A DNA stretch of 27,402 nt from a virus. The stretch covers positions 1 through 27,402 of IMG/VR virus record IMGVR_UViG_3300030108_001702, one strand, 5' to 3'. Under the pieces are notes generated by a model. The model made no database searches and was not told where the DNA came from. It was given only the letters and a program-made list of their open reading frames with translations. Positions 3,550 through 27,402 of the stretch are shown here, in pieces (positions within the stretch are counted from its first letter, which is position 1; each line of letters opens with the position of its first letter). Both the position numbers and the translations under genes were made by a program.

Positions 3550-3602
3550 TGGAAATAGCAATAGTATTTATAATCGGTTATTTAATTGGTAAGTACGCAT
3601 GA
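3549..3602 (+). CDS. 17-aa single-span micro-ORF
   Basis: ATG at 3549 shares its A with the previous stop (TAATG). The stop TGA at 3600-3602 overlaps the lysozyme ATG (ATGA). The product, MEIAIVFIIGYLIGKYA, is almost entirely one short hydrophobic helix with a single Lys near the C-terminus. Without it there would be a 49-base gap in an otherwise overlapping gene run. Its exact fit to both neighbours argues for translation, either as a real peptide that modulates holin action or as a coupling device carrying ribosomes to the lysozyme start. Confidence 0.45.
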   Translation: MEIAIVFIIGYLIGKYA

Positions 3603-6162: not shown

Positions 6163-6485
6163 TGGCTAATACTTATGTCAATGCAAAGGTAGACCTGACT
6201 ACCACTAATATAACCACGTTATACACCTGTGCGGCTTTGACCACGGGTATAGTAAAATCTATCTTAGTGTCGGAGGACTCTAACAATGCAGACACTATTA
6301 CGCTGACCATAACAGATGCTTCTAGTGCAGTATTTAGTATATATAAGACCAAAGCTGTTGGCGCTAACGGTACGGTGGAACTACTTACTGCACCCCTTGT
6401 GGTACAGGCAGGTGAGATATTAAAGGTAACTGCAGCCACAGCTAACAGACTGCACGTTGTAGCAAGCATACTGGAGATAACGTAA
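6162..6485 (+). CDS. Small beta-rich virion protein (107 aa)
   Basis: A 107-aa protein rich in Thr, Val and Ala, with alternating beta-strand-like patterns: TNITTLYTCAALTTGIVKSI, TITLTITDASSAVFSIYKT, and LVVQAGEILKVTAATANRLH near the end. This looks like a jelly-roll or immunoglobulin-like decoration or neck protein. It is coupled by TAATG overlaps to both neighbours in the structural region. No enzymatic motif is present. A virion decoration or tail accessory role is inferred. Confidence 0.7.
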   Translation: MANTYVNAKVDLTTTNITTLYTCAALTTGIVKSILVSEDSNNADTITLTITDASSAVFSIYKTKAVGANGTVELLTAPLVVQAGEILKVTAATANRLHVVASILEIT

Positions 6486-11165: not shown

Positions 11166-11177
11166 AGAGGCGTAAGG

Positions 11178-13142: not shown

Positions 13143-16100
13143 ATGGCTTCTGTAGCTGAGATAAAAACTTTTCTCGACTCTGCATCTGATGAGTTTAGAA
13201 AGTCTCCAAAATACCAACAAGTAGTGGATATATACGAAAGACGATCTTATAGAACGTACCGTCCCCCGAAACCTCCTCCTGAACCGGATATTATAGATCA
13301 ATTTGAAGAGTTTGCTAAAGGTATACCTGCGGGCATTGTAGGGCTTGGAGAGTTAGGTGCGTTAGGTATAGCCACTCTTTTAGACGAAGATAACGAACTT
13401 GCTGCGCGTAAAGCAATACAAGAAACAGCAGCCCCCATCAAAGAGTTTTTTAGTGCAGACAAGGGTTCAGAAGAAGCGGTAGGGCGTAAGTTTGGAGAAG
13501 CACTAGGTTCTTTTGCAGGATTAGGAATTACTTCTCTTGTGCCTTATGCAGGTGTTCCTTTGGCGGCAACGCTCGCTACAAGTGCTGGTGCTGGTGAAGC
13601 AAGTGAAAGGGCCAGAGCCGCAGGAGCAACTCAAGAAGAACGTAGTAGAGCCGCGTTACTCGGTACTGCTGTAGGGGCCAGTGAACTTATACCTATATTT
13701 AAACTGAAGAGTTTAAGAGAAGTTCTTGGAGACAACGCACTCCTTAACGGGGTAGAAAGAATAAAACGTGCCGCAACTGCGGGAGGATTTGAAGCAGCCC
13801 AAGAAGCCGCAGCGGGCATTGCACAGAATGCCATTCAACGTGGGTACGATCCTAGTCAAGATTTAATCAACGCTGATGTAGCAGAAGAAGGTACTTATGG
13901 TGGTGCGGTGGGTGCCACAGTACAGGCACTATTAGATTTATCACTGCCAAAAACTAGGAAAACAGGAGAAACTGGTCCGGTTGAAACGGGCGATCAGACT
14001 AAAGGAAAGACTGATGAAACGGTAAAAGGTGCGCTTGAAGGTCAATTTGATGACGATGCAGGTGGTGCAAAAGTAGAAACAAAAGAGACATTCCTTACTC
14101 AGGCACAGTTCGATAAACGTGTAAAAACGCTTGTAGACACTGAAAACGTCTCTGAAGAAGAAGCTAGAAGAACTGTTAGCTCTATAGCAACTTTGCGCCC
14201 TACAGAAAAAGAAGCCACTGATAAGATAAAAGGAAACTTAACTAGGGTAAAAAACTTATCAACTAGGGTTAACAATGACATAAAAACAATAAGTAATAAA
14301 AAATCTGACCCTAAAAAAGTAGAAGCTGCCAAACAAAGGCTGCTTGAGGACACAAAAACTTTAGGGCAAATCGGTCCTGAAGTTAATACCATACTTCAAC
14401 AGAGCGAGTTAAACCTAAAGAAGGGCGCAGTAAAGAAAGCATATGATTCTTATTTAGAAAAAGGGCCGTTACAAAAAGGCAATGAGCTATTAAAGAAAAG
14501 CAAACAATTTATTAAAGACAATAAGATACGCTCAACGCCAACGAGACTTAGAAAGTCGAAAGGTAAAATCGCTGATGGCGCAGTAGCTACAGGTACAATA
14601 GCTGATGGCGCAGTAACTGAAAACATAACCGCAACACCGGGTAAGGTTAGTGGTCCTACAGTAGATACTTCTAAGAAATTAAGTAGCGATGAAATCGAAT
14701 TAGCAGGGCTTAGAGAAACGCTAGATGGTCTCACTGGAGGTAAAGATGCAGAAGGCAACTATAGAAAAGCCACTATGGAGGATATGGATAGAATACTTAG
14801 TATTGAAGATCAAATAAAAGGAGTAGAAAAAAGAATTGCATCTGAAGCTCCCGCTGATACTACTGATACTACTGATACTACTGGTGCTACTGGTACTCCA
14901 GCCCCCGAAACATTCCTTAGCATAGAAACAGCAAAAGAAGATCCGAGTATAAAAAGAAGCGATACAAGTTTTATAGATAGTAGAAATAAAAAAGTACCTA
15001 TAGAGAAAACCACTACAAAAGATTTAAACGCTTACAACAATGTAAAAAATAATAAATTTACGAACGCCAAAGAAGAAGCGGCTCAAGCAATATTTGCACC
15101 TTACAAAACTATTCAAGATGGGTTTGACCATTTAGCATATCAAATTGCTGAATACCGAGCACGTATAGACAATAATGAAAGCCTATCAAGAAAAGAAAGA
15201 GCAGATTTGTTCTCTGAGTCTCCTTTTGAATTAGCTAGAAAACATGTGCTAGGTGAAGGAGGAGCCAAACCAAAAACGCCCTACAGTGATAGAGCACGAA
15301 AACATTTTATACTTTTAACTGATAATTACTATAAAGCACTTAATAAAAAATACATAAAAGAACGAAAACAAGCCGAAGCTGAAGCCGATGCTAAAGCCAA
15401 AGCCGAAGCTGAAGCCGATGCTAAAGCCAAAGCCGAAGCTGAAGCCCAAGCCGAAGCCGATGCTAAAGCCAAAGCTAAAGCTGAAGCCAAAACCAAAACC
15501 AAAGCCAAAACCAAAACCAAAACCAAAGCCAAAACCGCTGAAGAGAAAAGAAACGAAAAAAAGAAAAGAGAGATAGAGGCGGCACGGGCTAGAAAAGGTG
15601 GTGTAACAGATGAAACAGGCAATCTTAGAAATTTAAGCTTTGAAGAAATAGTTGCAATAAATAAAGAAAGGGCCAAAGAAAGAAGGGAAAAAGAAAAACA
15701 AGATAGATTAAAAAATCAAAATAACGAACGAAACGAAGCGTCAACAAAAGGAAGCGTTAGCCCCGTTAATAATGCCAAAATTGAAGCCGCGCAAAAAAGA
15801 GTTTTAGCAATAAATGCAGAGTTACAGACAACTCAAACCGAAATGGAACAAGCTATTACGGAAGGAGATAACAATAAAGCTAAAAAATTAGAAGGCAAAG
15901 AACAAAGACTAAAAAGAGAAAAAGCTAAACTTGTAAGGCAATTTCCTAGTATTGCAAACTTTGCGTTGCCAACAGAGGCGGTGCAAGAGTCTATAGAAAA
16001 CGTCAGCCCTAAAGTAGTTACTGCGCTGAAGAAAAACGATCTAGCCGCTGCGCTAGAGCAGATGTCTAATACAGCTACCTCTAACTACTTACGGATACTA

Positions 16101-19100
16101 AGCAAGCGTTTAGTGTCCCCGGTAACAGGTACGAAAGTTAAAGTAGTCAAGAACTTAAAGCTAAACGGCAAACCTGTGTCGGGGTCTTTTGATGCCACAA
16201 CTAACACCATATCGCTAGACAGCGTAACAGGAATCAACTACCACACAGTGTTGCACGAGGTAGGACATGCTCTGGGGCAATCTAATTTAGCTAATAACCC
16301 AACAAGTGCCTTCTCTGTGCAGATGAATAAACTTTATAACGAAGTGAAGGATCTGTTAGGTAGTGCATACGGAGTACAAGGAGGCGTACAAGAATTTTTT
16401 GCAGAGGGTATGAGTAACGAGTCTTTTAGAAAAGACTTAAATAAGTTACACATCAAGGGCGAACCCAAAAGTGTCTTGCAATATTTCCAAGAAATTACAC
16501 AAAACCTAATAAATAGAATATTCGGTAGGAATACTTACAAATCTAAAACGGCTTTGTCTGAGTTCAACGAGTTACTAGATACCGTACTGTCTCCTGATCC
16601 TGATGGACGAGGTGCTGAAAGGCTGTCTGCTGAAGCTGACTTAGAGGGAGTAGAACAATCTCTGGGAGTCATGGGATCTATATGGAAACAGCTACGCAAA
16701 AACCCTTTGAGCACTGGGGAGAGAAACAAACTTGCAGATGATTCAAGACAATTTCTTGAAGATGTGCCCAATGCAACAGGTAATTTAATGTTGAGTTTGA
16801 GGGGTCTGCAAGCCGTAGCTGATATATCTAAAAAATACTTTGGTGAATTAGGAGAATCACTTTACAGGGCCGTTAAAGAACAACGCGGGGCAATGCAGTT
16901 ATCAGATGAAAACGTAGACATTGTTGTAAATAGTTTGGCTAATATAGAGAAGAAATTCGGCAAAGAAGAATATGATCGTCTTTCTAAAGTTATTTATAGC
17001 GAAGAATACGGTGCCACCATATATCAAATTGATCCTACCTTAGATGATAACCAAGGGTTATTGCGGTATGGAGGTAGTAAAGCACAATATGCAAGATGGA
17101 AGAGAGTAAAGAAAGAATTTAATAACCTAGAAGGTGAAACCCAACGTGTTTACAAGCAAATGCGAGGGCTGTACAGAAGGCAGTATTTAAAACTAAGAGA
17201 CATACTTTATGATCGAATAGCCGCTACAGCAGGTAAAAAAGAAGCGGATAAGATAAAAAGTAAAGTTTTTGACAAGATATTTAGTAAGAACTTACTGGAC
17301 GTATACTTTCCTTTAGCAAGAGAGGGGCGGTATAAAGTTAAATATTTCACTAAGCCCACAAGCAAACGTGCGAAAAAAGACGTTTACAACATGGAGATGG
17401 TAGGCACTCTAGCCGAAGCCAACGACCTAGTAAAAGAACTAGAAGCTGATCCAGATGTCATAAGAGTAGAAAAACCAATAGACAGCAAGGTAGATGCAGG
17501 GTCACTCAGTGACAGAGTGCCACCAATAGGGTTTGTAAATGACATACTCACCGCGTTAGATAAAGGTCTAGCTCCTAAAAAAGGAGAGACAGAAACGCCT
17601 GAACAGCGAAAAATGCGAACACAGGTGAAAGAGCAAGTTGTAAATACGTTTGTTGAGACGCTTCCAGAGACTTCTGTTGCAAGGTCATTATCTAAAAGAA
17701 AGCAAATTGCAGGGTATAAAGAAGACCCTATGATAGCCTTGCGTACAAAAGCATACGATCTTGGTAGACAAGCCGTTCGTTTAGAAAGCAGTAAGAACAT
17801 ACTAGGGATAGAAAACAAAATCATAGAAGCTTATAAGGCTAAAGAAGATACTTTAGATAGGAGTCTTACTGGTAAATCTCTCACTCAAATATACCAAGAG
17901 TTACTGCTCAGAGCGGAGTTTGCACGTAATCCACCCCCCGACATGATAGCGCAGACAATAAACCAAGGAGCTTTTGTTTATACCATAGGATTTAACGCTT
18001 CTTCAGCCATAGTCAACCTATCTCAAGTGCCTTTGTTTGTGCTTCCTTATCTTGGTGGTAAGTACGGATACAGAAAAACTGTACCTGCAATGCTTAAAGC
18101 GGCACAAACAGTTACCAGATCGTTTAAAGATTTAGACGTAGGGTTAGATAATTTTTATTCGCGTGACTTTGAAGGAAACTACACGTTAGACCCTGACAAG
18201 GTTAAAGACATGAGTGCTGAAGACAAGAAGATGTTTAAAAACATGGAAGCACTTGTAGAATTAGCCACTAGGGAAGGCGCATTAACAAAGTCTTTCTTGA
18301 TAGATACTTTAGGGTTACAGAAAGAATCTTTTAAAACAGGAAGAGAAAGAACAGGATCTAGCCCAAGAAAAGTTTTAGATAAGATAACTGGCATCTCTGC
18401 CGCTATGTTTAACGTAGCAGAACGCTACAACAGACAGACTACTATGGTCATGTCTTATCAATTAGCTTTGGATAAAATTAGTGGAGGAAAAAAAGACTAC
18501 AAATTTACGAAAGAAGAACTAAACGCAGCCGCGCGTGAAGCTCTTGATGATACAGTAGATACTAACGGTGGGTCTTTCTTAGAAACTTCTCCAAGACTAT
18601 CTCAACAAGGTATAGGTAGAGTTGCCCTTATGTACAAGAACTACGGGCTACAGATGTACTATACAATGATTAAATCTGGGTACAAAGCTATGGGCAAAGC
18701 AGAGCTATCATCTGACCCAGAAGAAAATAAACGATTACGGAAAGAAGGCATAAAACAATTACTAGGCTTTCATGGGTCAGCTTTGTTCTTTGCAGGAGTG
18801 CAAGGACTGCCTTTGTATGGTGCGGTAAGTATGATTGCTAACGCATACCTTGACGATGATGAAGATGATTTTGATAAAATAGTAAGAGATTATATAGGTG
18901 AGGGTTGGTATAAAGGGGTAGTTAACCAACTCACAGGAGCAGACGTTGCTACAAGAATACGTTTGACAGGACTACTTATACAAGACAATAGATACAATAC
19001 TAAACCTTCTCCTGAAGAATTTATTGGATTTTACTTGGGTGGCCCCGCACTCAGCACCGTTAAACGTATTACAAGAGGTATAGAAGATCTTTCAAGTGGA

Positions 19101-19601
19101 GAGGTAGAGCGAGGAATAGAATCTATGCTCCCTGCAGGAATAGCAAACTTTTGGAAAGCTAATCCACTACTTAACGGTAGGTATGTACGTGAAGGCATAG
19201 TAACCCGAAGAGGTGATCCGATCTATGATGATATAAGTAGTGGCGAGTTAGCGGCTCAAATGTTTGGATTCGCTCCTAACGAGTACACGAAACGGCAAGA
19301 AGTAAACATGATCGAGAAAAAAATTGATCGTACTATTAATGAGAACAGAACAAAACTTCTTAGAGAGCTTTATGTAGCTACGAGACATAATGACGGAGAA
19401 AGAAGGAATGCAGCTTTTAAAGATATTCAAAAGTTTAATAATAAACATCCGACTTTTTACATAAGTATTAACACTATACAAAAATCCTTACGCTCCCATT
19501 TAAAAACATCTGCTTTGATGCACAATGGGGTTTTATTAAGTTCTGGTATGCGAAAGGCCATTGAAGAACAGACTGAGGCTTTAGAAACGCTATATGAATA
19601 A
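13143..19601 (+). CDS. Large polyvalent ejection protein with metallopeptidase domain
   Basis: A 2152-aa protein presumably stored in the virion and injected with the DNA. Residues 60-81 and 118-165 are Gly/Ala-rich hydrophobic stretches in a context (GATQEERSRAALLGTAVGAS, then GGFEAAQEAAAG) typical of the membrane-active N-terminus of phage large polyvalent proteins. Residues 280-940 are charged and repeat-rich. They hold two IADGAVT units (477-491), DTT x3 (572-580) and an Ala/Lys/Glu tract (about 743-800). Residues about 950-1130 form a zinc-peptidase-like domain: H1038-E1039-V-G-H1042, with a downstream EFFAE (E1084, E1088) able to give the third ligand. The C-terminal kilo-residue has the QGAFVYTIGFNASSAIVNLS region (about 1608), a hydrophobic patch near 1873 and a final helical domain (about 2040-2150). 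This resembles large polyvalent protein C-terminal domains (LPD38 type, from memory). It is the last gene of the arm. Confidence 0.85.
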   Translation: MASVAEIKTFLDSASDEFRKSPKYQQVVDIYERRSYRTYRPPKPPPEPDIIDQFEEFAKGIPAGIVGLGELGALGIATLLDEDNELAARKAIQETAAPIKEFFSADKGSEEAVGRKFGEALGSFAGLGITSLVPYAGVPLAATLATSAGAGEASERARAAGATQEERSRAALLGTAVGASELIPIFKLKSLREVLGDNALLNGVERIKRAATAGGFEAAQEAAAGIAQNAIQRGYDPSQDLINADVAEEGTYGGAVGATVQALLDLSLPKTRKTGETGPVETGDQTKGKTDETVKGALEGQFDDDAGGAKVETKETFLTQAQFDKRVKTLVDTENVSEEEARRTVSSIATLRPTEKEATDKIKGNLTRVKNLSTRVNNDIKTISNKKSDPKKVEAAKQRLLEDTKTLGQIGPEVNTILQQSELNLKKGAVKKAYDSYLEKGPLQKGNELLKKSKQFIKDNKIRSTPTRLRKSKGKIADGAVATGTIADGAVTENITATPGKVSGPTVDTSKKLSSDEIELAGLRETLDGLTGGKDAEGNYRKATMEDMDRILSIEDQIKGVEKRIASEAPADTTDTTDTTGATGTPAPETFLSIETAKEDPSIKRSDTSFIDSRNKKVPIEKTTTKDLNAYNNVKNNKFTNAKEEAAQAIFAPYKTIQDGFDHLAYQIAEYRARIDNNESLSRKERADLFSESPFELARKHVLGEGGAKPKTPYSDRARKHFILLTDNYYKALNKKYIKERKQAEAEADAKAKAEAEADAKAKAEAEAQAEADAKAKAKAEAKTKTKAKTKTKTKAKTAEEKRNEKKKREIEAARARKGGVTDETGNLRNLSFEEIVAINKERAKERREKEKQDRLKNQNNERNEASTKGSVSPVNNAKIEAAQKRVLAINAELQTTQTEMEQAITEGDNNKAKKLEGKEQRLKREKAKLVRQFPSIANFALPTEAVQESIENVSPKVVTALKKNDLAAALEQMSNTATSNYLRILSKRLVSPVTGTKVKVVKNLKLNGKPVSGSFDATTNTISLDSVTGINYHTVLHEVGHALGQSNLANNPTSAFSVQMNKLYNEVKDLLGSAYGVQGGVQEFFAEGMSNESFRKDLNKLHIKGEPKSVLQYFQEITQNLINRIFGRNTYKSKTALSEFNELLDTVLSPDPDGRGAERLSAEADLEGVEQSLGVMGSIWKQLRKNPLSTGERNKLADDSRQFLEDVPNATGNLMLSLRGLQAVADISKKYFGELGESLYRAVKEQRGAMQLSDENVDIVVNSLANIEKKFGKEEYDRLSKVIYSEEYGATIYQIDPTLDDNQGLLRYGGSKAQYARWKRVKKEFNNLEGETQRVYKQMRGLYRRQYLKLRDILYDRIAATAGKKEADKIKSKVFDKIFSKNLLDVYFPLAREGRYKVKYFTKPTSKRAKKDVYNMEMVGTLAEANDLVKELEADPDVIRVEKPIDSKVDAGSLSDRVPPIGFVNDILTALDKGLAPKKGETETPEQRKMRTQVKEQVVNTFVETLPETSVARSLSKRKQIAGYKEDPMIALRTKAYDLGRQAVRLESSKNILGIENKIIEAYKAKEDTLDRSLTGKSLTQIYQELLLRAEFARNPPPDMIAQTINQGAFVYTIGFNASSAIVNLSQVPLFVLPYLGGKYGYRKTVPAMLKAAQTVTRSFKDLDVGLDNFYSRDFEGNYTLDPDKVKDMSAEDKKMFKNMEALVELATREGALTKSFLIDTLGLQKESFKTGRERTGSSPRKVLDKITGISAAMFNVAERYNRQTTMVMSYQLALDKISGGKKDYKFTKEELNAAAREALDDTVDTNGGSFLETSPRLSQQGIGRVALMYKNYGLQMYYTMIKSGYKAMGKAELSSDPEENKRLRKEGIKQLLGFHGSALFFAGVQGLPLYGAVSMIANAYLDDDEDDFDKIVRDYIGEGWYKGVVNQLTGADVATRIRLTGLLIQDNRYNTKPSPEEFIGFYLGGPALSTVKRITRGIEDLSSGEVERGIESMLPAGIANFWKANPLLNGRYVREGIVTRRGDPIYDDISSGELAAQMFGFAPNEYTKRQEVNMIEKKIDRTINENRTKLLRELYVATRHNDGERRNAAFKDIQKFNNKHPTFYISINTIQKSLRSHLKTSALMHNGVLLSSGMRKAIEEQTEALETLYE
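14571..14615 (+). repeat. Direct repeat, 15 bp x 2, 30-bp period (ADGAV)
   Basis: GCTGATGGCGCAGTA occurs at 14571-14585 and again at 14601-14615 inside the giant ejection protein gene. The translated units (KIADGAVA and TIADGAVT) look like phage tail-fibre shaft repeats. Confidence 0.9.
14856..14882 (+). repeat. Tandem repeat, 9 bp x 3 (Asp-Thr-Thr)
   Basis: Three exact copies of GATACTACT (14856-14864, 14865-14873, 14874-14882) followed by degenerate GGTGCTACTGGTACT. It codes for a DTT/GATGT linker in the giant ejection protein, next to a Pro-rich turn. Confidence 0.93.
15371..15535 (+). repeat. Ala/Lys/Glu low-complexity repeat (30-bp unit x about 2.5, then 6-bp AAACCA-type units)
   Basis: A 30-base unit (AGCCGAAGCTGAAGCCGATG followed by CTAAAGCCAA) is repeated exactly at 15371-15400 and 15401-15430, with a partial third copy to 15446. 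It then degrades into AAAGCC/AAAACC hexamers to about 15535. It encodes alternating Ala with Glu/Asp/Lys, then Lys-Thr/Lys-Ala pairs, like the long charged helices of TolA-type proteins. Confidence 0.93.
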
Positions 19602-19622
19602 AAACCCCCCAGTTAAGGGGGG
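19600..19622 (-). terminator. Rho-independent terminator for the leftward (replication) transcript
   Basis: A perfect six-pair hairpin: CCCCCC at 19605-19610, loop AGTTAA, GGGGGG at 19617-19622. On the minus strand it is followed by TTTTT (19604-19600) and then ATT. On the plus strand it is followed by CTAATGCG with no T run, so it should stop leftward transcription before it enters the late genes. Confidence 0.8.
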
Positions 19623-19644
19623 CTAATGCGTGGGAGAACATGCA

Positions 19645-19672: not shown

Positions 19673-19903
19673 TCACACCGTTCTCCACACTCGTAACCCT
19701 AAACAACCGTTTTCGACCCATATTTTAGTTAAAAACTGCCATTTTCTCTGTACAAATACGTCTTTTATCTGTTTTTTAGCTTTTTCCGTATTAATACAGG
19801 GTATAAAAATAGAGGCGTTTACGTGCATAGTATCCCAATCTACTACTATTTTTACTCCATCTGGAGACAAATCATAAGTCCGAAGTATCTCCGGTTTCGT
19901 CAT
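19673..19903 (-). CDS. Small protein of unknown function (76 aa), end of replication operon
   Basis: The product starts MTKPEILRTYDLSPDG, continues with KIVVDWDTMHVNASIFIPCI and ends LGLRVWRTV. The balanced mix of strands and one Lys-rich helix (NTEKAKKQIKDVFVQRKW) looks like a real folded domain. The gene overlaps the 3' end of the primase-helicase gene by 32 bases. Three in-frame starts exist (GTG 19912, ATG 19909, ATG 19903). The 19903 start is chosen because GTAGGTG lies 6 bases before it. No family is recognised; translation with the primase suggests a helper in replication. Confidence 0.65.
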   Translation of the reverse strand: MTKPEILRTYDLSPDGVKIVVDWDTMHVNASIFIPCINTEKAKKQIKDVFVQRKWQFLTKIWVENGCLGLRVWRTV

Positions 19904-22712
19904 TGTCATCACCTACCGTAAACTTCATAACTAATACGTCTGCTGGAGGTAGATTAAGTTTAGTGCCTTTACTCAAACGAACTTTCGCTCTCTTACCCTC
20001 GCAGTGTTCTTTTATCTGTTTCAATAAATATGCATAGTTTATCTGTTGTTCTCCACACCAAGTTTTTAATATCTTTGGTACCACATAAAACTTTTGTGTG
20101 TCAGTTTCGTATCTAGCTACCAACTTACCCCTAGCTATAGCATCAGGTATTACTAAAGTATCTAAACCATTTCCCTGTAGCTTTCTATTATCGTAGGTGC
20201 TTTCTATCTGTAGGATGTTACTTATGTGTTCGCTAAAGAAGTTATTCATGGTGTCAAATACCGAAGTGCCTGTATTCGTTTCCATATTGCGTTTGTTTTG
20301 AGCTATTAAAGTGTTAATAGTCCAATTAAATATTTTTTTAGTATCAAAGTTTACCAGCCCTATCCGCTTTGCAAGAATTAAACCTGATAGCGTAGCCGCT
20401 ATATGGGCTGACCAAAAACGATTCTCTGACTCTAACTTACCTATTGTGTCAACACGGTCTTTAACCTTCTTTGTTAAAGCTCTTACTTCATCTAAATTAT
20501 TCATCACATACTGCACAAAAGGCACAGCCGCCACGCCATAAGTACCTTTCTTAACTTTTTCCTCAAATGCGTAGGCTTCTTTAATTGATCCAAACAGATG
20601 CTTTACACTCGGTACAAAACACTCCAATACCCTCTGTGCCTCGGCTTTCGCCATAGCCTTTGCCATGCTGACACGTTCTATGATACTGGCGTTGCCTGTT
20701 GTTATCGCTAACAAGTGCCAAGGTCTCCCCCTGTACCGTTCTATGTTACCCTTAGACGACATACGGTTGCGTTGTTTACCAGAGGTAAATTGATACAGTA
20801 TCTGCGATGCTTGTTGCGGGGTTATATTAGTAATCTCATCTATCGCCCAAGGTAAGTTATGGTATACCTCGCCACGGTTCATTCTACTATAGTGCGTGTC
20901 CTCATGGTCTAACATCAACTTCTCTGGACTCCCCCATATACCCAAAGAAGCAAATACAGCACTAGTCTTACCTACACCAGACTCGTCACTATGAAGGTGC
21001 ATGGCCGCACAGTTGGCATTAAAAAACTCCATGAGCACAGAGCCAAAACCTGTGCCTAGTACATACTGGTATAATTCAAATCCCTCTCTGTCCCAGAAGG
21101 AGATTACTTGTTTCCACTCCTCTAATGTTCCTCTAGGTTCAAATGAATCAAAGTGCGCTATTGTCGAAGCGGTAGGGGGGTTAAACTCTATACTGTTAGG
21201 TAGTATCTTCTGGTTGCCTAGTATGAAAGCATCCATCTTTCCATCTGCCCATCCAAACTGTCTTTGGGCATCTTTTGCTATACTGTTTGATTGTAATTCG
21301 TTAATCCATGTGGTCGTATAAGCCATCAACTCATCCATCTTCATCACAGCTACCCCCTCTGCGGATAGCGTTTTACGAAATTCTTCCCTTGAGGTAATCG
21401 CACTCAAAGGTAACGTAAACTCTTTTACCCCGTCTTTAGGCAAGTGCAATCTCATTACCGCACACTCTCCTAACTCAGGATCACGCACTCTATCTGTTAC
21501 GTAGAGGTCATTATGATATATGCTCTTCTCGTCAAAGTCTCCGTCTGAATTAGTTGTCCTTAGAAATACACCCCCCTTGACACCACGAAAATATGGTTTG
21601 GGGTATATGGGTATCTCATAACTACTTACCTCTTCTTCATCTAGTGAGGATAACTTATACGATGTAGTATTTTCTGAATCAGGTTCAGACTCTTTGTATC
21701 TATTACCCAAAACAATGGGTGATTTTACTTTACCCCAGTTCGGACAGTTAGGGCATACATCGGGATTGAATTCATCAAACTTCGCACAAGTATATGGGCC
21801 TTTTATCGGACCAAACTTCTTTTCAGTCGCTTCTTGTGAATAGTCAGGATGCCTATTTGACAGGATATGAGAGGCTTTTTTACCGTCCACGCAGAATCTA
21901 GCAATAGATAGCCCCGCTCTCCACATCGGTTCACTGGTGTTTTCTTGATCCTTGATAATTATTTTTAACTGTTCGCACCCCCGCCCTGCTTTTGTTTTCT
22001 TTACTATGTCTAAAAAGCAAGACTCTCGATTTCCCATCAAAGCATTCATCACCGCATTACCACCGGACGGTGTTACCTTCGTTAAAGGGGGGACTAACTC
22101 AGTGCCTAATAATCTCGAAAAGTTATCAAAATCACGACATTCAATGTCAACATTACCTAACCCATGCACCTCAGAAGGAGGCTCGGTCTTGTGATTGTGT
22201 GTTAAAGGTACACGTAAAACCCTAGCTGTATCCGCAGTTACTGCAGGGTCAGCAAAAAAATTGTGTTCAGCACAAACCTTTTTAAACCGCTCCGCAGTCT
22301 GTATCCAATCTTCAGGCGTTATGTTGTCTGACATGGGCCAGTAAACATGTATACCTCTACCAGAGTCTACGGTAATTGGTTCTGGTAAACGTAAAGACAT
22401 GCAGAACTTCTGCAGAGCATCAACCGCTTCTATCTTAGAGCCATAGTCTTTACTTGGCCCACAATCTAAATCAAGAAACAAACTACGCATATAGCGCACG
22501 TTGGTCGCTTTTCTTGATCCTTCTTCTTCAAACGTAGCTAACGCAAAATAAACATCGTATCCGTCAACGTCTAGTTGTTCCGCATCATTTATTAGCGAGT
22601 GCGTATCTTTGTAGAACCTTTGCACTCTCTTGGATGTGGATGCGTTAGCGGCAAATAAACAGTAATAACCACTATCAGCTAATACCGCTTTTAAAAACTT
22701 ATCGGTATTCAT
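19872..22712 (-). CDS. Primase-helicase (PrimPol-type N-terminus, DUF927-type ATPase)
   Basis: A 946-aa protein that likely primes and unwinds phage DNA. The N-terminal primase domain (about 50-200) has the archaeo-eukaryotic primase pattern: LFLDLDCG with D81 and D83, DSGRGIHVYWPM with S117 and H122, then DTARVLRVP with R164. Cysteines C309, C320 and C323 (CPNCPNWGKVKSPIVLG region) look like a zinc-binding element between modules. The C-terminal half has a DUF927-like region and a P-loop ATPase. Walker A is SDESGVGKT (575-583, K582) and a Walker B-like stretch is LPWAIDEITN (D625, E626). A strong AGGTGG sits 4 bases before the ATG. A hairpin separates it from the upstream SSB-like gene, and its 3' end overlaps the 76-aa gene. 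Confidence 0.85.
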   Translation of the reverse strand: MNTDKFLKAVLADSGYYCLFAANASTSKRVQRFYKDTHSLINDAEQLDVDGYDVYFALATFEEEGSRKATNVRYMRSLFLDLDCGPSKDYGSKIEAVDALQKFCMSLRLPEPITVDSGRGIHVYWPMSDNITPEDWIQTAERFKKVCAEHNFFADPAVTADTARVLRVPLTHNHKTEPPSEVHGLGNVDIECRDFDNFSRLLGTELVPPLTKVTPSGGNAVMNALMGNRESCFLDIVKKTKAGRGCEQLKIIIKDQENTSEPMWRAGLSIARFCVDGKKASHILSNRHPDYSQEATEKKFGPIKGPYTCAKFDEFNPDVCPNCPNWGKVKSPIVLGNRYKESEPDSENTTSYKLSSLDEEEVSSYEIPIYPKPYFRGVKGGVFLRTTNSDGDFDEKSIYHNDLYVTDRVRDPELGECAVMRLHLPKDGVKEFTLPLSAITSREEFRKTLSAEGVAVMKMDELMAYTTTWINELQSNSIAKDAQRQFGWADGKMDAFILGNQKILPNSIEFNPPTASTIAHFDSFEPRGTLEEWKQVISFWDREGFELYQYVLGTGFGSVLMEFFNANCAAMHLHSDESGVGKTSAVFASLGIWGSPEKLMLDHEDTHYSRMNRGEVYHNLPWAIDEITNITPQQASQILYQFTSGKQRNRMSSKGNIERYRGRPWHLLAITTGNASIIERVSMAKAMAKAEAQRVLECFVPSVKHLFGSIKEAYAFEEKVKKGTYGVAAVPFVQYVMNNLDEVRALTKKVKDRVDTIGKLESENRFWSAHIAATLSGLILAKRIGLVNFDTKKIFNWTINTLIAQNKRNMETNTGTSVFDTMNNFFSEHISNILQIESTYDNRKLQGNGLDTLVIPDAIARGKLVARYETDTQKFYVVPKILKTWCGEQQINYAYLLKQIKEHCEGKRAKVRLSKGTKLNLPPADVLVMKFTVGDDNDETGDTSDL

Positions 22713-22722
22713 AGATCCACCT
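22713..22722 (-). promoter_or_regulatory. Strong ribosome binding site of the primase-helicase
   Basis: On the minus strand AGGTGGATCT immediately precedes ATG (22712). It is the best Shine-Dalgarno of the module. It allows independent initiation after the intergenic hairpin and fixes the start of the 946-aa protein. Confidence 0.7.
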
Positions 22723-22735
22723 AAAAATAAAGGAT

Positions 22736-22766
22736 GCTAGGGAGAGAGTAACTCCCTATCCCTAGC
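22736..22766 (-). terminator. Long hairpin between SSB-like and primase genes (attenuator/terminator or processing site)
   Basis: On the minus strand GCTAGGGA pairs with TCCCTAGC (8 bp). After a 2-base TA bulge, GGGAG pairs with CTCTC (5 bp, one G-T) around a TTA loop. This gives 13 pairs in 31 bases. It is followed by ATCCTTTATTTTT, a broken T-rich tail. It begins 9 bases after the SSB-like stop codon and ends before the primase ribosome site. It probably lowers read-through into the primase, or stabilises or processes the upstream mRNA end. Confidence 0.7.
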
Positions 22767-22774
22767 AAAGCTGA

Positions 22775-24076
22775 TTAGTCGTCAGTGAGCCACTCATCAA
22801 TCTGAGCGTCCAAATCATCATCCTTTACTTTCGGTGCAGGTTTTTCTTTCTTTGCCACCTTCTTAGGTTCTTCAGGTTCATCTTCAAAACCATCGTCATT
22901 CGCAGGTTCTGCAGTAGCTTCTTCTGCAAACGGACTTAGCTCCTCTTCAACAGCGAACTCTTCGTCTACTTCAAAAGGAGAAGCAACGTCTTTTCTAGGT
23001 GCCTCTTTGAGCACTTGTATCTCACGCAGTCTAAGACTCGTGCCGTTGCCATTTAGGTGATACGGTACAAAATCTACGTTGACAGTAATAATACTACCTG
23101 TAGTAAGTTGATACCCCTCGTCCATCGGTCTGTTGTTAGCATCCCAATGTTTTGGGGGTGTGGTTGGATTGCCACTGTATGCCGCTTTGATCTTTGTTTT
23201 TATTTGAAAAACAGCATCCTTATTTTTAATAGACCCTTCCAACACTTTAAAATTGTGCTTGAATGGGGGCCATTTCGGTTCTTTTTTCTCTTCATACGCT
23301 TTTTTCATAGCTTGCATGAGAGGGAGTGCCGTTTCGTAAGAAACTTTTAAATCGACTGTGTACTCCGCGCCATCATCTTTTGCTTGGCAAGGCACACTTC
23401 TACCTTCGGTATTGTCAAACCTGTAAGGTTTATCGAGTTTTGGGTAAAGTGCTTCCACTCTTCTGATTGTATAATCAGCCATATCTTCGTTCTCCGTTGC
23501 ATTAAAATTAAGTGTTATTGCTTTTATCGTATCGGGATGATTAGCCATCTCCTCCACTGTGCTTTTCTCTGTTCTGTCTATGGGTCTGACAGGTGAGAAA
23601 AATAACTTTGGTACCAAACTGTCAGTATCAAAGTAAATCTTTGTGTAAACACTTACACAAGATGTATCGTTCTTACTTAAAAACCGCGCGTATTCTTGTA
23701 ACGGCATGTGCCCATTGTTTTGCCGCCCGAAAATACTATTTGCAGGGACATGTAATTGATGCACTGCGTAGTCATTTTCAAAAAGAACAGCTAGTTTCTG
23801 TGAGAACCTACAGGCACGGCCACCGTTAGGCGCACTGCCACGTATATCGTGCTTGCAATCCATGCATCGTGTAGCTTGTCTCTTAGGAACTTCATCGTCC
23901 GGTCGCTGAGTATCAGAGGACCAACAAATAGGTACTTGTGGGTTGTTAGGGTCATATTCACCCTCGTAGTACGCCCGTTGTACTTGTGATGCGTTGACAA
24001 TGATACATTCGATTTCATCTTGGCAATGAATACCAAAAGTAAACTTGCGATCACGGATGCTAACTCTATCCATCAT
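22775..24076 (-). CDS. ssDNA-binding-protein-like, zinc-containing N-terminus
   Basis: A 433-aa protein. The N-terminal half has four cysteines spaced like a zinc site (C51, C71, C74, C89: PICWSS, RCMDCKHD, RACRF) and the block SIFGRQNNGHMPLQEYARFL. The C-terminal half has strands FKVLEGSIK, VFQIKTKIKAAYSG, YQLTTGSIITVNVDFVPYHL and TSLRLREIQVLKEAPRKD. These recall the OB-like DUF2815 family found in phage replication cassettes. The end is strongly acidic (DDDLDAQIDEWLTDD), as in many single-stranded DNA-binding proteins, where such a tail recruits partners. It starts in an ATGA overlap with the HTH gene without a clear ribosome site, so translation is probably coupled. Role by family resemblance, tail and neighbours; not proven. 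Confidence 0.65.
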   Translation of the reverse strand: MMDRVSIRDRKFTFGIHCQDEIECIIVNASQVQRAYYEGEYDPNNPQVPICWSSDTQRPDDEVPKRQATRCMDCKHDIRGSAPNGGRACRFSQKLAVLFENDYAVHQLHVPANSIFGRQNNGHMPLQEYARFLSKNDTSCVSVYTKIYFDTDSLVPKLFFSPVRPIDRTEKSTVEEMANHPDTIKAITLNFNATENEDMADYTIRRVEALYPKLDKPYRFDNTEGRSVPCQAKDDGAEYTVDLKVSYETALPLMQAMKKAYEEKKEPKWPPFKHNFKVLEGSIKNKDAVFQIKTKIKAAYSGNPTTPPKHWDANNRPMDEGYQLTTGSIITVNVDFVPYHLNGNGTSLRLREIQVLKEAPRKDVASPFEVDEEFAVEEELSPFAEEATAEPANDDGFEDEPEEPKKVAKKEKPAPKVKDDDLDAQIDEWLTDD

Positions 24077-24336
24077 ATATCATCGTCCAAACCTGTCCAT
24101 TTAAGCACTGGCATACCCTCTTCTTCAGCTAGAGTTTCTTGCCATTTTTGCGTGGTGTCAGACTTAGTTTCGCCTGTCAGAGACTTTTCAATCTCGTCAA
24201 GTTTGAAACGATAGGTATTACCTATCTTGATGTAAGTGTTTCTAGGTATGAGGTTTTTGCGTAGCCACACCCTCACTGTAGAAATACTTACGTCAAACTT
24301 TTTTGCGACAGCGTTAATAGTTACGTACTCGCTCAT
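24073..24336 (-). CDS. Small excisionase/MerR-type helix-turn-helix protein
   Basis: An 87-aa protein. Residues 4-52 (YVTINAVAKKFDVSISTVRV, then WLRKNLIPR, IGNTYRFKLDEIEKSL) form a winged helix-turn-helix of the excisionase/HTH_17 type, with the usual wing ending in a Lys/Arg-rich strand. The C-terminal 35 residues are acidic (AEEEGMPVLKWTGLDDDI). GAGAGGTAAGAA precedes the ATG. It overlaps the Gp157-like gene upstream (ATGA) and the SSB-like gene downstream. With no integrase seen in the window, a regulatory or replication-origin role is more likely than excision, but excision cannot be ruled out because the genome is incomplete. Confidence 0.8.
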   Translation of the reverse strand: MSEYVTINAVAKKFDVSISTVRVWLRKNLIPRNTYIKIGNTYRFKLDEIEKSLTGETKSDTTQKWQETLAEEEGMPVLKWTGLDDDI

Positions 24337-24749
24337 TTCTTACCTCTCGGTTTTTGAACAGTTATCGTATATTCCGCGTTTTGATTTAAACCCTGTGGTA
24401 TAAGTTCTTTATTCTCTTCAGAGTTCAAGAACTCTTCTAAGTTAGATTGAGATATTCTTTTTTGAAGGACTTCAGGTATTTGATGCTCTTTTATAAAAGC
24501 AAAAAATTTCTCCCAATCGCTTGTCCAATAAGAAACTTTCTTTTTTCTAATGAAAGTACCTTCAGCAGTTTTTACAGAATCAATATCGTTGACACGACAA
24601 TGATCTAAAAGAGCCGCCTTGATCTTATCTTGTTTAGCTGTAAGTCTCTTATCTTCTGCTTCAAAATCAGATTTAAGCTGACTGCGCTTATCTCGCAGGG
24701 TGCGGAAAGCCTTGACGAGCTTGGGTAAGCTCGGTACATTATTCTCCAT
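24333..24749 (-). CDS. Gp157-like phage protein (138 aa)
   Basis: A 138-aa protein. Residues about 10-60 are a charged coiled coil (LPKLVKAFRTLRDKRSQLKS and onwards). A beta-prone stretch follows, with KTAEGTFIRKKKVSYWTSDW (about 60-79), then a helical part (FFAFIKEHQIPEVLQKRISQ) and AEYTITVQKPRGKK at the end. This helix-then-beta design resembles the siphovirus Gp157 group placed in phage recombination/replication cassettes; resemblance is moderate. The ATG at 24749 is preferred over the upstream GTG (24767) because GGAGAAATGCA lies directly before it. A possible promoter precedes it. Confidence 0.65.
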   Translation of the reverse strand: MENNVPSLPKLVKAFRTLRDKRSQLKSDFEAEDKRLTAKQDKIKAALLDHCRVNDIDSVKTAEGTFIRKKKVSYWTSDWEKFFAFIKEHQIPEVLQKRISQSNLEEFLNSEENKELIPQGLNQNAEYTITVQKPRGKK

Positions 24750-24788
24750 TGCATTTCTCCGTTGCACCAGAATTAACTGGGAAACTTG

Positions 24789-24817
24789 ACTTTATTACTT
24801 AATTGTTAGCTAGTCAA
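24789..24817 (-). promoter_or_regulatory. Candidate sigma70-like promoter for the Gp157/HTH/SSB/primase genes
   Basis: On the minus strand TTGACT (24817-24812) is separated by 17 bases from TAAAGT (24794-24789), about 40 bases before the ATG at 24749. The -35 box matches consensus at 5 of 6 positions, the -10 box at 4 of 6. It lies in one of only two real gaps in the leftward gene run. The -35 overlaps one arm of a 7-bp inverted repeat (CTTGACT 24785-24791 and AGTCAAG 24812-24818 on the plus strand). Moderate support only. Confidence 0.35.
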
Positions 24818-26345
24818 GCAAATCTTTATATAAATCGATTATTTTTGTGTGAATGTTAATTCTACTATCTAACAGTGAGTAGATACGCTTTTCTACAGGC
24901 GAACTTTGTAGTTGCACCACCGTACACTTCTGATCTTGACCTGATCTATGTACCCTCGCGTTCGCCTGTGCATAGGTTTCTAAGGAACTTGTTGGTCCCC
25001 ACCATACCACCGTGTTAGCGGCTGTCAGTGTCACACCGTGAGCCGCAGACTGAGGCTGAATGATAAGCACCTTGGGGTCGGGCATAGTTTGGAATCGTTT
25101 AAATATCTCCGTCCTTTTGGGCGCAGATACGTCACCACGTATTATATCTGAGGTTATTTTATCTTTAGTTAGTTTGTCTTTTAATATATCTATGACATGT
25201 TTAAACGGCACAAACACCAAGACTTTTTTACTAGACTCATCTATAACTTCTTTCAGCACCTTATATCTGTGCGATATATCAAACTCAAGAGCTTCACCAC
25301 CGTCCGTGTACACCGCGCCACATGATATTTGCAACAGCTTATTCATGTTTACAGCCGCGTTGGGTGCGGTGATTTGTTCTCCTGCCGCTTGCATTACCAT
25401 TCTATCTTTTAGCTCTTGATAGTATTTCTTCTGTTGTCGTGACATCTCTACTTCACGTTTGGTATACACCATGTCTGGCAGATCGAGACATTCTTCTTTT
25501 GTAAAACGAATAGCGGGCTGAAGTGCTTTAAACACTGTATCTACTGAAGAATCTTTTGGTATCCACTTAAATTGTGTGATTTTCACCATCACCATGTCTC
25601 TAAATGAACTGTAAAATTTTGGTACCGCAGTTGGATTAATTAATTTAGCTAACCCGTACGCATCAAGTGGGCTTTGTGCCGCAGGGGTTCCGGTCATCAT
25701 CCATAACCACTTATCAGGAGTAAGTAACTTGTTGAGCACTTTCCATCGTTTAGTCTGTGCGTTTTTATAATGCGTGGCTTCGTCAACGATTATCAAGTCA
25801 AACCCACCGTTAGCGATATCATCTGCAACTACTTCTACGCCGTCATAGTTAATGATGACGTATTCTGCACCTTGATTAATTATCTTCTTACGTTTCTTTG
25901 CATCTCCGTAAGCAATGTCCACCGTGCGGTGCATAGCAAAGGTAAATAGGTCTGTTCGCCAAGCACTATCCATGATAGACAGTGGGCATATCACAAGCAC
26001 TCTATTTATCTTGCCTTCTTTCATAAGATAATCACTAGCCCAGATAGCACTAGCGGTCTTGCCTGTGCCTTGTTCGTTAAAGCAAAAAGCACGTTTGTGA
26101 AGGGTTAAGAAAGAGGACGTAGTTTTCTGATGCTCAAAAGGTTTTAACTTTCCTGCCCATTTATACCGCGACTCAATGGGAGAGGGTACTTTTATAGAGA
26201 GGTTATTAAGTACATGGGTTTCATCTAGCCCCCAGTTAACCAGCACCTGATTGTCTGGTAGCTTCTTACTTTTAGGTATAAGATCAACGACTTTATCTGG
26301 GTCACGTAGCCTTAGTAAGACGGCTCTATCTCTTACGATTTGCAC
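24810..26345 (-). CDS. SNF2-family DNA helicase/translocase
   Basis: A 511-aa SF2 ATPase that would remodel or translocate on DNA during replication or recombination. The motifs in order are: LKPFEHQ (68-73) at the Q/Ia region; Walker A NEQGTGKTASA with K96; DEAT box VDEATHYKN (D188, E189); motif III MTGTPAAQSP (217-225); helicase C-terminal VLVFVPFKHVIDIL (376-388); PQSAAHGVTLTAA (431-443); and motif VI YAQANARVHRSGQ (458-470, R464 and R467). The length and lack of extra domains match the short SNF2 helicases of phages. The start is GTG (26345), overlapping the HNH-like gene by 20 bases; no in-frame ATG is near. It lies in the cassette with the polymerase, nuclease and SSB. Confidence 0.9.
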   Translation of the reverse strand: MQIVRDRAVLLRLRDPDKVVDLIPKSKKLPDNQVLVNWGLDETHVLNNLSIKVPSPIESRYKWAGKLKPFEHQKTTSSFLTLHKRAFCFNEQGTGKTASAIWASDYLMKEGKINRVLVICPLSIMDSAWRTDLFTFAMHRTVDIAYGDAKKRKKIINQGAEYVIINYDGVEVVADDIANGGFDLIIVDEATHYKNAQTKRWKVLNKLLTPDKWLWMMTGTPAAQSPLDAYGLAKLINPTAVPKFYSSFRDMVMVKITQFKWIPKDSSVDTVFKALQPAIRFTKEECLDLPDMVYTKREVEMSRQQKKYYQELKDRMVMQAAGEQITAPNAAVNMNKLLQISCGAVYTDGGEALEFDISHRYKVLKEVIDESSKKVLVFVPFKHVIDILKDKLTKDKITSDIIRGDVSAPKRTEIFKRFQTMPDPKVLIIQPQSAAHGVTLTAANTVVWWGPTSSLETYAQANARVHRSGQDQKCTVVQLQSSPVEKRIYSLLDSRINIHTKIIDLYKDLLD

Positions 26346-26619
26346 TGGGCTTCTTCTTTTTGTAGTTTCTTGATCTATTCTTGCTTTTACTTTCTATTCG
26401 CACACCGTCTTTATTACTGCCGCCTTTGCTAAGTGCTTTCTTATGGGAAACGTCCTTACCTTCTCTCTTGTCGGCTTTTCCATTTTTGTTCTTGTCCACG
26501 CCTGTTTTATCAATCTTACGCCTCGCTCTCTGGCGTTCCATACGATTTTCATGTTCTCCCCTTGCTTTTTGTTGTTTATATTCTTTTTTATAAGGTCTTG
26601 GTTTATTTTTGTATGGCAT
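26326..26619 (-). CDS. Small HNH-like basic protein (97 aa)
   Basis: A 97-aa, extremely basic protein. The centre has GKDVSHKKALSKGGSNKDG (54-72) and then RIESKSKNRSRNYKK. The layout D-V-x-H with a later Asn (N69/N81) is that of small HNH-fold proteins common in marine phages, where the usual form is 'DVDHKDGNP...NLR..S...NRS'. H59 would be the catalytic or structural His; the second Asp of DVDH is Ser58 here, so nuclease activity is uncertain. The ATG at 26619 is chosen because GGGAGG precedes it by 5 bases and it shares a base with the nuclease stop (TGATG). A longer reading from 26643 would overlap the nuclease. Nicking, DNA binding or packaging roles are all possible. Confidence 0.7.
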   Translation of the reverse strand: MPYKNKPRPYKKEYKQQKARGEHENRMERQRARRKIDKTGVDKNKNGKADKREGKDVSHKKALSKGGSNKDGVRIESKSKNRSRNYKKKKPSANRKR

Positions 26620-27302
26620 CAATTCCTCCCGTTGTGAGCACATTCGAGGACTGCACAGTGCTTACGGCACAGCCCACTAGGTTTGGGGTTCCAAACATCG
26701 TTGTCTAACGCTTCCTGCATCAAAGTAAAAGAATCTGTCCACTTATTCCACAGTAATGTTTGATCTGTCTGTTTGTACTTACCTTTAACTAACTCATTGC
26801 ACACTACAAACAGCAACCCTGCACGTACTTCTTTGATCGCGGGGAAATGTTTAAACGTGGCAAGAGCCATAAGTTCTAACTGTCCTTTGTCTGCATACTT
26901 CGCAGACTTACCTGTCTTATAATCAATTACCCAAGCTAACTGATCGTCTGTGTCGAGTATCACTAGGTCTGCTATACCACGCCACCATACGTTATCAGCG
27001 TAAAAACCACACGGCTCAAGACTTTCTGTGAGTCCCATCTTAAACTCGCAGAGTTTCTCACCCTTCTTAGCCGTTAATGAATCTAAAGCAGACTGAACAT
27101 ACTCAAACGCTCTGGGCAACGGCTCTTTGTCACGTACGTACTTCTCAGCCGCCTCGTGCATCAGTGTGCCGTACCGCATGGCTTCTGTTTCCTTGTCCTC
27201 GTACTGTTTCAACACTTTCATGTGATAAAACTGCTTCGGACATTGTTCAAACGCTTTGGCCTTGCTGAACGACCAAGGCACAATGCTACTCGCATTCTCC
27301 AT
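26619..27302 (-). CDS. Fe-S PD-(D/E)XK nuclease, Cas4/RecB-like (DUF2800-type)
   Basis: A 227-aa exonuclease candidate for DNA end processing. The N-terminus WSFSKAKAFEQCPKQFY is typical of the family (C21). RYGTLMHEAAEKYV gives H49. IADLVIL gives D112. VIDYKTGK gives D127 and K129, the PD-(D/E)XK core. QLELMALA (Q141) matches the conserved Gln motif. C212, C216 and C221 near the C-terminus (GLCRKHCAVLECAHNG) together with C21 make the four-cysteine Fe-S cluster pattern of Cas4/AddB-type nucleases. A start at TTG (27332) is possible, but the ATG at 27302 begins at the natural family start and overlaps the polymerase stop by 17 bases. Partners are probably SNF2 and the SSB-like protein. Confidence 0.88.
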   Translation of the reverse strand: MENASSIVPWSFSKAKAFEQCPKQFYHMKVLKQYEDKETEAMRYGTLMHEAAEKYVRDKEPLPRAFEYVQSALDSLTAKKGEKLCEFKMGLTESLEPCGFYADNVWWRGIADLVILDTDDQLAWVIDYKTGKSAKYADKGQLELMALATFKHFPAIKEVRAGLLFVVCNELVKGKYKQTDQTLLWNKWTDSFTLMQEALDNDVWNPKPSGLCRKHCAVLECAHNGRN

Positions 27303-27402
27303 AGCTACTACCCACACCTGACTCGCAATCAATGGGCAAACCTTCTGCCCAATCGGGAGTCCATCTCATACATTCTTCGATGTACGACTGTGCCTCCGAA
27401 AC
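27286..27402 (-). CDS. C-terminus of a probable family A DNA polymerase (partial)
   Basis: Reading leftward from the window edge (27402) there are 38 codons, then TAG at 27288-27286. The product includes AQSYIEECMRWTPDWAEGLP and IDCESGVGSSYGECE. The combination of an amphipathic helix (EECM), PDWAEGLP and a final Gly/Tyr tail is how phage family A polymerases commonly end, with WAEGLP-type turns, from memory. The following genes (nuclease, SNF2, SSB-like, primase) support this. Only the extreme end is visible, so catalytic motifs cannot be checked and the call is provisional. Confidence 0.5.
   Translation of the reverse strand, partial: VSEAQSYIEECMRWTPDWAEGLPIDCESGVGSSYGECE

Follow-up and report, generated by a model that had tools for sequence, protein, structure and literature searches.

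Single-stranded DNA (ssDNA)-binding proteins (SSBs) organise every replication fork, and to our knowledge few viral SSB families are known. Their acidic tails recruit partners: bacterial SSBs contact other proteins through a tip of the form DD[IL]PF, phage T7 gp2.5, which has annealing activity, ends in a terminal Phe, and gp32 combines a cysteine metal-type site (a zinc site) with an acidic tail. A module of duf2800, gp2.5 and polA has been reported, in the available text of its source, from Firmicutes phages and, as data not shown, from most phages of Gram-negative bacteria (PMC8093625; the same text equates PF10991 with the DUF2815/Gp2.5 family). We have analysed a 27,402-base viral fragment, IMG/VR record IMGVR_UViG_3300030108_001702 (the window), for which no longer record exists and whose continuation to the right is known only through relatives. 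Its leftward run of replication genes shares with that module a DUF2800-matching PDDEXK nuclease, a gp2.5-type SSB and PolA in the same run, with no bacterial-type ssb found in relatives. The window differs in that the gp2.5-type domain is fused, or in relatives adjacent, to a four-cysteine domain (the N-domain), and in that PrimPol-DUF927 and Gam-like genes belong to the run. We consider it likely that this is a replication operon with a tandem SSB, composed of the N-domain, a gp2.5-type OB domain and a shared tail, and the N-domain probably represents an undescribed family of ssDNA-binding proteins.

Among named phages, Pseudomonas phage Rollin (OR577172) and Rhizobium phage RHph_TM29 (MN988463) carry PolA, PDDEXK, SNF2, Gam-like, N-domain and PrimPol genes in the same relative order as the window; beyond PrimPol, on the other strand, each has a related giant gene, at a distance of about 11 kb in Rollin and about 2 kb in RHph_TM29. 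They differ in their PrimPols (25-29% identity), have no gp2.5-type OB domain and give no match to the window's nozzle, g448 and g369 families (the last two being the families of 448- and 369-aa structural-block genes); RHph_TM29 also has a VRR-NUC and extra genes. Pseudomonas phage KPP25 (Kochitakasuvirus) has PDDEXK, SNF2-type helicase, PolA, Gam-like and N-domain genes and an SU10-type portal, as do the window or its kin, but in the order PDDEXK-SNF2-PolA-Gam-N-domain, with no match to the window PrimPol, no OB domain and no WDD tail. It is described as a member of the Podoviridae in the title of a cited paper, and the available text on its close relative CRPAP1904 gives a 20 nm tail by electron microscopy (PMC13340246). 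DSL-LC04 and 023Pt_psg01 share with the window the nozzle family, relatives of g448 and g369, and SNF2, but give no match to the window PrimPol and have no N-domain.

A two-domain SSB candidate and its moving tail

The gene that a sequence-only reading had taken for a simple DUF2815-like SSB encodes a 433-aa fusion that this reading overlooked. The N-domain (23489-24076, minus strand; Cys residues 51, 71, 74 and 89; phrog_27714; OB-like predicted fold) is followed by an OB ssDNA-binding domain of the T7 gp2.5/Enc34/DUF2815 type (22982-23488, minus strand), and then by a low-confidence linker and a conserved acidic, Trp-bearing C-terminal tail (22775-22981, minus strand), which in the window ends ..IDEWLTDD. 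Assignment of the C-terminal half to the gp2.5/DUF2815-type SSBs is supported, at the level of profiles and a model, because phrog_112 (Gp2.5; 7.7e-15), the T7 gp2.5 profile match and the predicted fold agree. The OB profile matched T7 at 2.8e-6, at a position that we take to be gene 2.5, and the T7 gp2.5 chain 1je5 at 8.3e-4; the predicted fold aligned with 1je5 at Z 16.5 (root-mean-square deviation 3.7 over 154 residues), with the Enc34 SSB (5odl) at Z 14.1 and with the DUF2815 protein 4klk at Z 13.4. The original DUF2815-like call therefore stands for this half, although the match to PF10991 itself reached 18.1 bits, below the 26-bit gathering score. An OB fold and an acidic aromatic tail are common to this protein and to T7 gp2.5 and Enc34 SSB; compared with T7 gp2.5, the window protein has the additional N-domain and places a Trp a few residues before its end rather than a terminal Phe.

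All 24 diverse N-domains that we aligned match phrog_27714, a PHROG of unknown function, and retain the four cysteines without exception, including those of Xp15, KPP25 and a Firmicutes phage. The same pattern is present in 116/116 N-domains from IMG/VR, and at least 599 viral contig stretches encode the domain. No meaningful Pfam match was obtained among the members tested, a PDB sequence search returned no relative (just two unrelated chains at E 0.7-0.9), and a search of genome contigs gave 20 pattern matches, none of them a relative. In the literature searched we found no mention of phrog_27714 or phrog_23155, nor any SSB or Rollin paper on the subject.

The N-domain occurs alone, beside a separate OB gene or fused to it. 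The 116 IMG/VR records in our counts include 79 from an alignment search led by N-domain-only (N-only) proteins, limited to its best 80 matches, so that their shares are biased towards this form: 62 are N-only, 25 have the two domains as separate genes (split), seven are fused and 22 are limited by contig ends. The 35 loci found through PrimPol comprise 12 N-only, 17 split and six fused. N-only relatives end in an acidic ...WDD tail. A Trp lies within the last ten residues of all 62 N-only proteins (60/62 by a stricter motif), of 7/7 fusions and of the 18 complete proteins from records of unclassed architecture, whereas in split pairs it is absent from every N-domain protein (0/25) and present in every OB partner (25/25). 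Whichever protein comes last in the N-domain/OB pair thus has the tail. Control genes of the same loci rarely had such a Trp (Gam 0/113, SNF2 0/112, PDDEXK 0/87, HNH-like 0/90, HTH 1/116, PolA 1/68, PrimPol 2/84); the giant gene has a Trp near its end in 24/76 and the full tail motif in 1/76.

A quick PrimPol tree places the loci that have an OB domain in three groups (that of the window; L018-L023 with L034 and L035; L024, L025 and L036) and needs at least five changes among fused, split and N-only forms; it gives no direction. The N-only form may be the older, a direction of change for which the sole basis is its presence in Rollin and RHph_TM29.

A distant branch of the family carries a different end. 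The N-domain protein of phage THSA-485A ends ..DEENIPF, and used as a query it retrieved 31 viral loci (L151-L181), all with the N-domain and the four-cysteine pattern (31/31). Thirty of the proteins are complete; PF lies among the final four residues in 24 of them, and 20 fit the stricter [DE]..[ILVM]PF, many of them DDLPF-like; this is the type of tip found on bacterial SSBs, whose own family, PF00436, gave no match in related records. Control open reading frames of at least 100 aa from the same loci showed the loose pattern in 7/307 and the strict one in 1/307, with no PF end in SNF2 (0/14) or Gam-like (0/13) proteins. The last 12 residues of the distant-branch proteins are acidic (mean net charge -2.7 versus +0.6). 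In the window branch PF ends are absent (0/112), WDD-type tails standing in their place. Because the N-domain itself reaches into Firmicutes phages, namely THSA-485A (phrog_23155, phrog_27714) and Faecalibacterium phage FP_Epona, the replication module looks old.

Two structural models of the N-domain aligned best with a chain of the phiC31 integrase-RDF (recombination directionality factor) complex (Z 7.4-7.5), followed by RB69 gp32 (Z 6.6-6.7), BRCA2 (Z 6.1) and T4 gp32 (Z 5.3). With gp32 of T4 and RB69 the likeness is one of predicted fold, with no sequence or profile match, and the gp32 family PF08804 was found at E <= 0.1 in 0/11 related records, T4 being positive. Taken alone, the modelled fold is suggestive of ssDNA binding but does not decide the matter. 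No sequence or profile match was found between the N-domain and the phiC31 RDF (gp3) family, which belongs to different PHROGs. The phiC31 gene 3 (L149:4099-4833), presumably the RDF gene, includes a stretch rich in Cys and has exonuclease, primase and polymerase genes nearby.

Searches for another SSB in phages with the N-domain alone were negative. The OB profile gave no match in Rollin, RHph_TM29, KPP25 or any of seven N-only contigs 58-65 kb long; gp32-type SSB (PF08804) was not found in the same set; and the bacterial-type SSB family PF00436 was found in 0/10 records, Rollin, RHph_TM29, KPP25 and T7 among them, and in 0/7 N-only contigs.

The replication run and its podovirus setting

A rightward structural block occupies the left of the window, and a leftward block runs from the right edge down to 19872. 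The latter encodes PolA, a PDDEXK nuclease, a small HNH-like protein, SNF2, a Gam/Gp157-like protein, an HTH protein, the SSB and PrimPol-DUF927. Since the genes are tightly packed, with overlaps at polA/PDDEXK, PDDEXK/HNH-like, HNH-like/SNF2, Gam/HTH and HTH/SSB, and since a hairpin with a T-run resembling an intrinsic terminator stands at 19603-19624 (minus strand, read 19624-19603), immediately beyond the giant gene, they are likely to form one transcription unit, judging from the sequence. The order is kept in 36/36 IMG/VR loci as far as each contig reaches (35 loci found by PrimPol searches and one by an SSB search), which bears out the leftward replication run first proposed. The giant gene follows convergently in 29 of the 36; the remaining seven contigs stop before PrimPol or no more than 430 bp beyond it. 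In the cross-comparison of families among these relatives, profile E-values include sequences used in building the profiles.

The polA gene is represented by its end (27286-27402, minus strand), 38 C-terminal codons and a stop, the remainder lying beyond the window. These codons match the terminus of the full-length family A DNA polymerase that relatives have in the same place, in agreement with the initial PolA call, and PF00476 was found in 17/19 related records; in the two misses the contig breaks inside SNF2 (G009) or just upstream of PDDEXK (G012). The Cas4/RecB-like PDDEXK nuclease (26619-27332, minus strand; likely ATG at 27302, inside the end of polA) is above the cut-off for each of the families invoked for it, with PDDEXK_1 at 4.6e-18, DUF2800 at 28.0 bits (cut-off 21) and Cas4 at 23.1 bits (cut-off 22.7). 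One N-terminal and three C-terminal cysteines, a layout typical of Fe-S nucleases of the Cas4/AddB type, are found by loose patterns in 77 and 78 of 79 distinct homologues, the window included. In one relative (L030) the PDDEXK gene (705-1450) and the giant gene (8443-13487) each lie in two overlapping frames, possibly through sequencing or assembly frameshifts.

The small basic protein downstream (26326-26643, minus strand; phrog_4590, 1.1e-7) has an HNH-like signature by eye and an uncertain function; the HNH call found a weak echo in its family, where one of 20 members matches PF01844 at E 0.015 and one of 20 GH-E at 0.065, but the window protein itself has no Pfam match. The SNF2-family helicase/translocase (24810-26345, minus strand) is supported as first called, with a Pfam match at 4.7e-25, Walker A, a DEAT box and motif VI, and so is the HTH_17/MerR-like DNA-binding protein (24073-24336, minus strand; HTH_17, 1e-7). 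Between them lies a protein like Mu Gam and Gp157, an end-protection candidate (24333-24767, minus strand; phrog_253, 6e-4; phrog_13900, 4e-16). Its Gp157-like call fares better for the family than for the window protein, which falls below the Pfam cut-off (E 0.04): among 21 members at E <= 0.1, nine match Mu Gam, eight the TOTE Gam/Gp157 model and five Gp157, all weakly, so that the assignment is plausible at superfamily level, and a PDB search with the family gave nothing convincing. PHROGs labels phrog_13900 'minor head protein', although it lies inside the replication cassette, and the label looks wrong.

The last gene of the run (19872-22712, minus strand) encodes the PrimPol-DUF927 primase-helicase, which was rightly recognised from the outset, with DUF927 at 2.9e-20 and phrog_25314 at 1.2e-96. 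It has the archaeo-eukaryotic primase motifs hDhD and SGxGxH near residues 80 and 117, and a Walker A (GVGKTS) and a Walker B (AIDE) near residues 579 and 622. Its PrimPol part scores under the Pfam cut-off, matches phage primase families and returned nothing in a PDB search. The corresponding RHph_TM29 gene (L002:31228-34311) is annotated putative integrase, and the giant gene of Rollin (L001:15452-22006) oligopeptide ABC transporter protein, both likely misannotations. On the polA side of the cassette, an AAA ATPase adjoins a DUF2201 VWA/metallopeptidase gene in relatives G011 (L043:863-4476) and G004 (L053:1339-3699), and RHph_TM29 has an ATPase and a metallopeptidase annotated upstream of polA.

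The phage, known here from the genes of a metagenome fragment, is probably a podovirus, short-tailed, with a genome of about 60 kb, a size taken from relatives; a near-identity search with the window among phage records gave no match. The podovirus-type genome first proposed is upheld by a nozzle-family match and by SU10-type portals in relatives. The nozzle gene (4082-5968, plus strand; phrog_3287, 2.6e-62) carries its P22 gp10-type label on the strength of relatives' annotations (stabilization or needle head protein). At 7e-15 the profile of its family finds 8zkm_E and 8zkk_O, both deposited as nozzle proteins, and at 7.7e-28 it finds 9nwi_Y, whose deposited name is capsid and scaffold protein; P22 gp10 itself is absent from its matches, and the P22-like tail completion of the sequence-only reading is retained to that extent. 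An SU10-type portal was detected at E <= 0.001 in 8/15 records, seven of them above the cut-off and none within the window itself: relatives G010, G011, G014 and G006 are above the cut-off, G015 is weak, and RHph_TM29, KPP25 and psg01 have one too, with no match in G003, G004, G009, Rollin, DSL-LC04, LASTA or T7. The near-full-length relative G011 has the terminase, an SU10-type portal and the capsid protein. As had been noted for the window, a T7-type RNA polymerase (PF00940) and a gp4, DnaB-type helicase (PF03796) are lacking: each family was found in 0/12 related records, several of them partial, with T7 positive as a control for both.

The rightward block also contains a tail-fibre-like gene (38-1267), a lysozyme gene (3599-4081) and, convergent with the operon, the giant gene (13143-19601, plus strand; 2,152 aa), with LPD39 and a DarB-like C-terminal region. 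Four structural-block genes in 6485-13142 (741, 448, 369 and 654 aa) have no PHROG match at E <= 0.1; g448 and g369 are those with relatives in DSL-LC04 and 023Pt_psg01. Where the window has the 741-aa gene, G011 has a 3,754-aa open reading frame (L044:493-11757) between its relatives of g448 and g64. In the available text on CRP-901, that phage has no RNA polymerase and its structural genes are HTVC023P-like (PMC10149686). Although its nozzle protein is related, CRP-901 was discarded as a relative of the cassette, its helicase and primase not being found by our SNF2 and PrimPol profiles.

Alternative readings of the N-domain and the cassette

On balance, and with moderate confidence, we favour the view that phrog_27714 and phrog_23155 constitute a widespread family of four-cysteine OB-fold SSBs, the sole phage SSB in many phages, with WDD tails in one branch and PF tips in another, and that in the window branch a second, unrelated SSB of the gp2.5 type has joined it, separate or fused, carrying the shared tail. 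We read the N-domain as an SSB because of its SSB-like tips, the tail that it shares with a gp2.5-type SSB, the lack of another SSB in N-only contigs and the gp32 and BRCA2 fold matches. Several observations weigh against this. The fold matches are all below Z 8, a level at which a common arrangement is not excluded; Foldseek gave no match to the N-domain model at E <= 0.001; the cysteine region of the models is of low confidence; and hhalign-type profile comparisons with T4 gp32, phiC31 gp3 and the window's own OB domain were negative, leaving kinship of the N-domain with any of the three without profile support. A tail implies partners rather than DNA binding, the WDD tail is not present in KPP25 or RHph_TM29, and the PF end is missing from six of the 30 distant-branch proteins, two of which finish in basic stretches. 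Near-copies, which are numerous among the loci, were kept in the counts, and both tail patterns were defined after viewing the sequences; completeness of the related records is not certified, and the phages could use a host SSB. The relatives' PrimPols, finally, show the Walker A pattern in 77/86 and a strict Walker B pattern in only 23/86.

A rival reading, which we judge unlikely, makes the N-domain a metal-site partner or adaptor within the replication machinery, perhaps a loader or an accessory of a polymerase or recombinase, that docks through its tail, with N-only phages relying on the host SSB. It accords with the lack of any sequence link between the N-domain and an SSB and with a best fold match that is the phiC31 integrase-RDF chain and not an SSB, phiC31 gene 3 also lying in a replication region. 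However, it does not sit well with a tail that passes to the gp2.5-type SSB (25/25 versus 0/25), with the 20/30 distant-branch proteins that end like bacterial SSBs, or with the next fold matches, which are named ssDNA-binding proteins or BRCA2. Unlikely too, in our judgement, is the view that there is nothing new here, only a known PDDEXK-gp2.5-PolA-SNF2 module in an ordinary podovirus whose SSB bears a lineage-specific decoration. The module is indeed in print as far as the available text goes (PMC8093625), most of it occurs in KPP25, Rollin, RHph_TM29 and Xp15, and phages of the HTVC023P and CRP-901 types with other replication sets have been published, to go by the parts of those reports available. 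Nevertheless, a family without an assigned function in PHROGs or Pfam that occurs in at least 599 viral contig stretches argues against mere decoration, which also leaves the transfer of the tail unexplained.

The sequence-only reading had placed the novelty elsewhere, in a clear mosaic of a Firmicutes-siphophage replication set and a podovirus. Such DUF2800-DUF2815-PolA sets are in print for Firmicutes phages, but the same text extends them, as data not shown, to most phages of Gram-negative hosts (PMC8093625). Recent capture of a Firmicutes siphophage cassette by a P22-tailed podovirus would fit the Firmicutes phage THSA-485A, in which a single run encodes SNF2, DUF927 and a homologue of the N-domain. 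A 24-row SNF2 tree, though, unites the window in one group (97/97) with its ten sampled relatives, Rollin, RHph_TM29, Xp15 and two Acinetobacter phages; outside this group fall three Firmicutes phages, together with DSL-LC04, 023Pt_psg01 and the proteobacterial phages Almagne and Serbin; KPP25 is also outside, on a long, unsure branch, and the tree is midpoint-rooted and carries long-branch warnings. Of the 14 phage records that PrimPol matches, coverage reaches 80% in Rollin (97%, at 29% identity) and in four RHph_TM phages (82%, at 25% identity) and in no others. PolA-PDDEXK-SNF2-Gam-N-domain stands behind a different primase in Xp15 and in Acinetobacter phage HHU4, and the cassette and giant gene occur together in 29/36 loci. 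A recent mosaic is therefore very improbable, and most of the set, found also in Rollin, RHph_TM29 and the podovirus KPP25, is not a one-off. Because the SNF2 tree leaves the Firmicutes phages outside, the siphophage affinity is not sustained, and the Firmicutes-siphophage label would describe resemblance in gene content and not source.

Returning to the tandem SSB, PrimPol-DUF927 would prime and unwind, PolA would copy and extend, and SNF2, the PDDEXK nuclease and the Gam-like protein would handle ends and recombination, as their sequence families suggest. The 433-aa protein would coat exposed ssDNA through two modules, with binding by the N-domain, whose four cysteines probably hold a metal, the more conjectural of the two; by analogy with acidic SSB tails, its single acidic Trp-bearing tail may recruit other replication proteins. 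In many relatives the N-domain with its tail is the only SSB candidate, and in the window branch and at least two others the gp2.5-type domain is placed beside or behind it and has the tail.

The cassette in a podovirus is an already known kind of thing; the tandem SSB with its tail transfer is, as far as we found in the literature searched, new. If the N-domain is an SSB, a protein encoded in at least 599 viral contig stretches gains a function. A tail that changes its carrier would then be a natural test of whether what stays constant in a phage SSB is its C-terminal tail rather than the fold that binds DNA.

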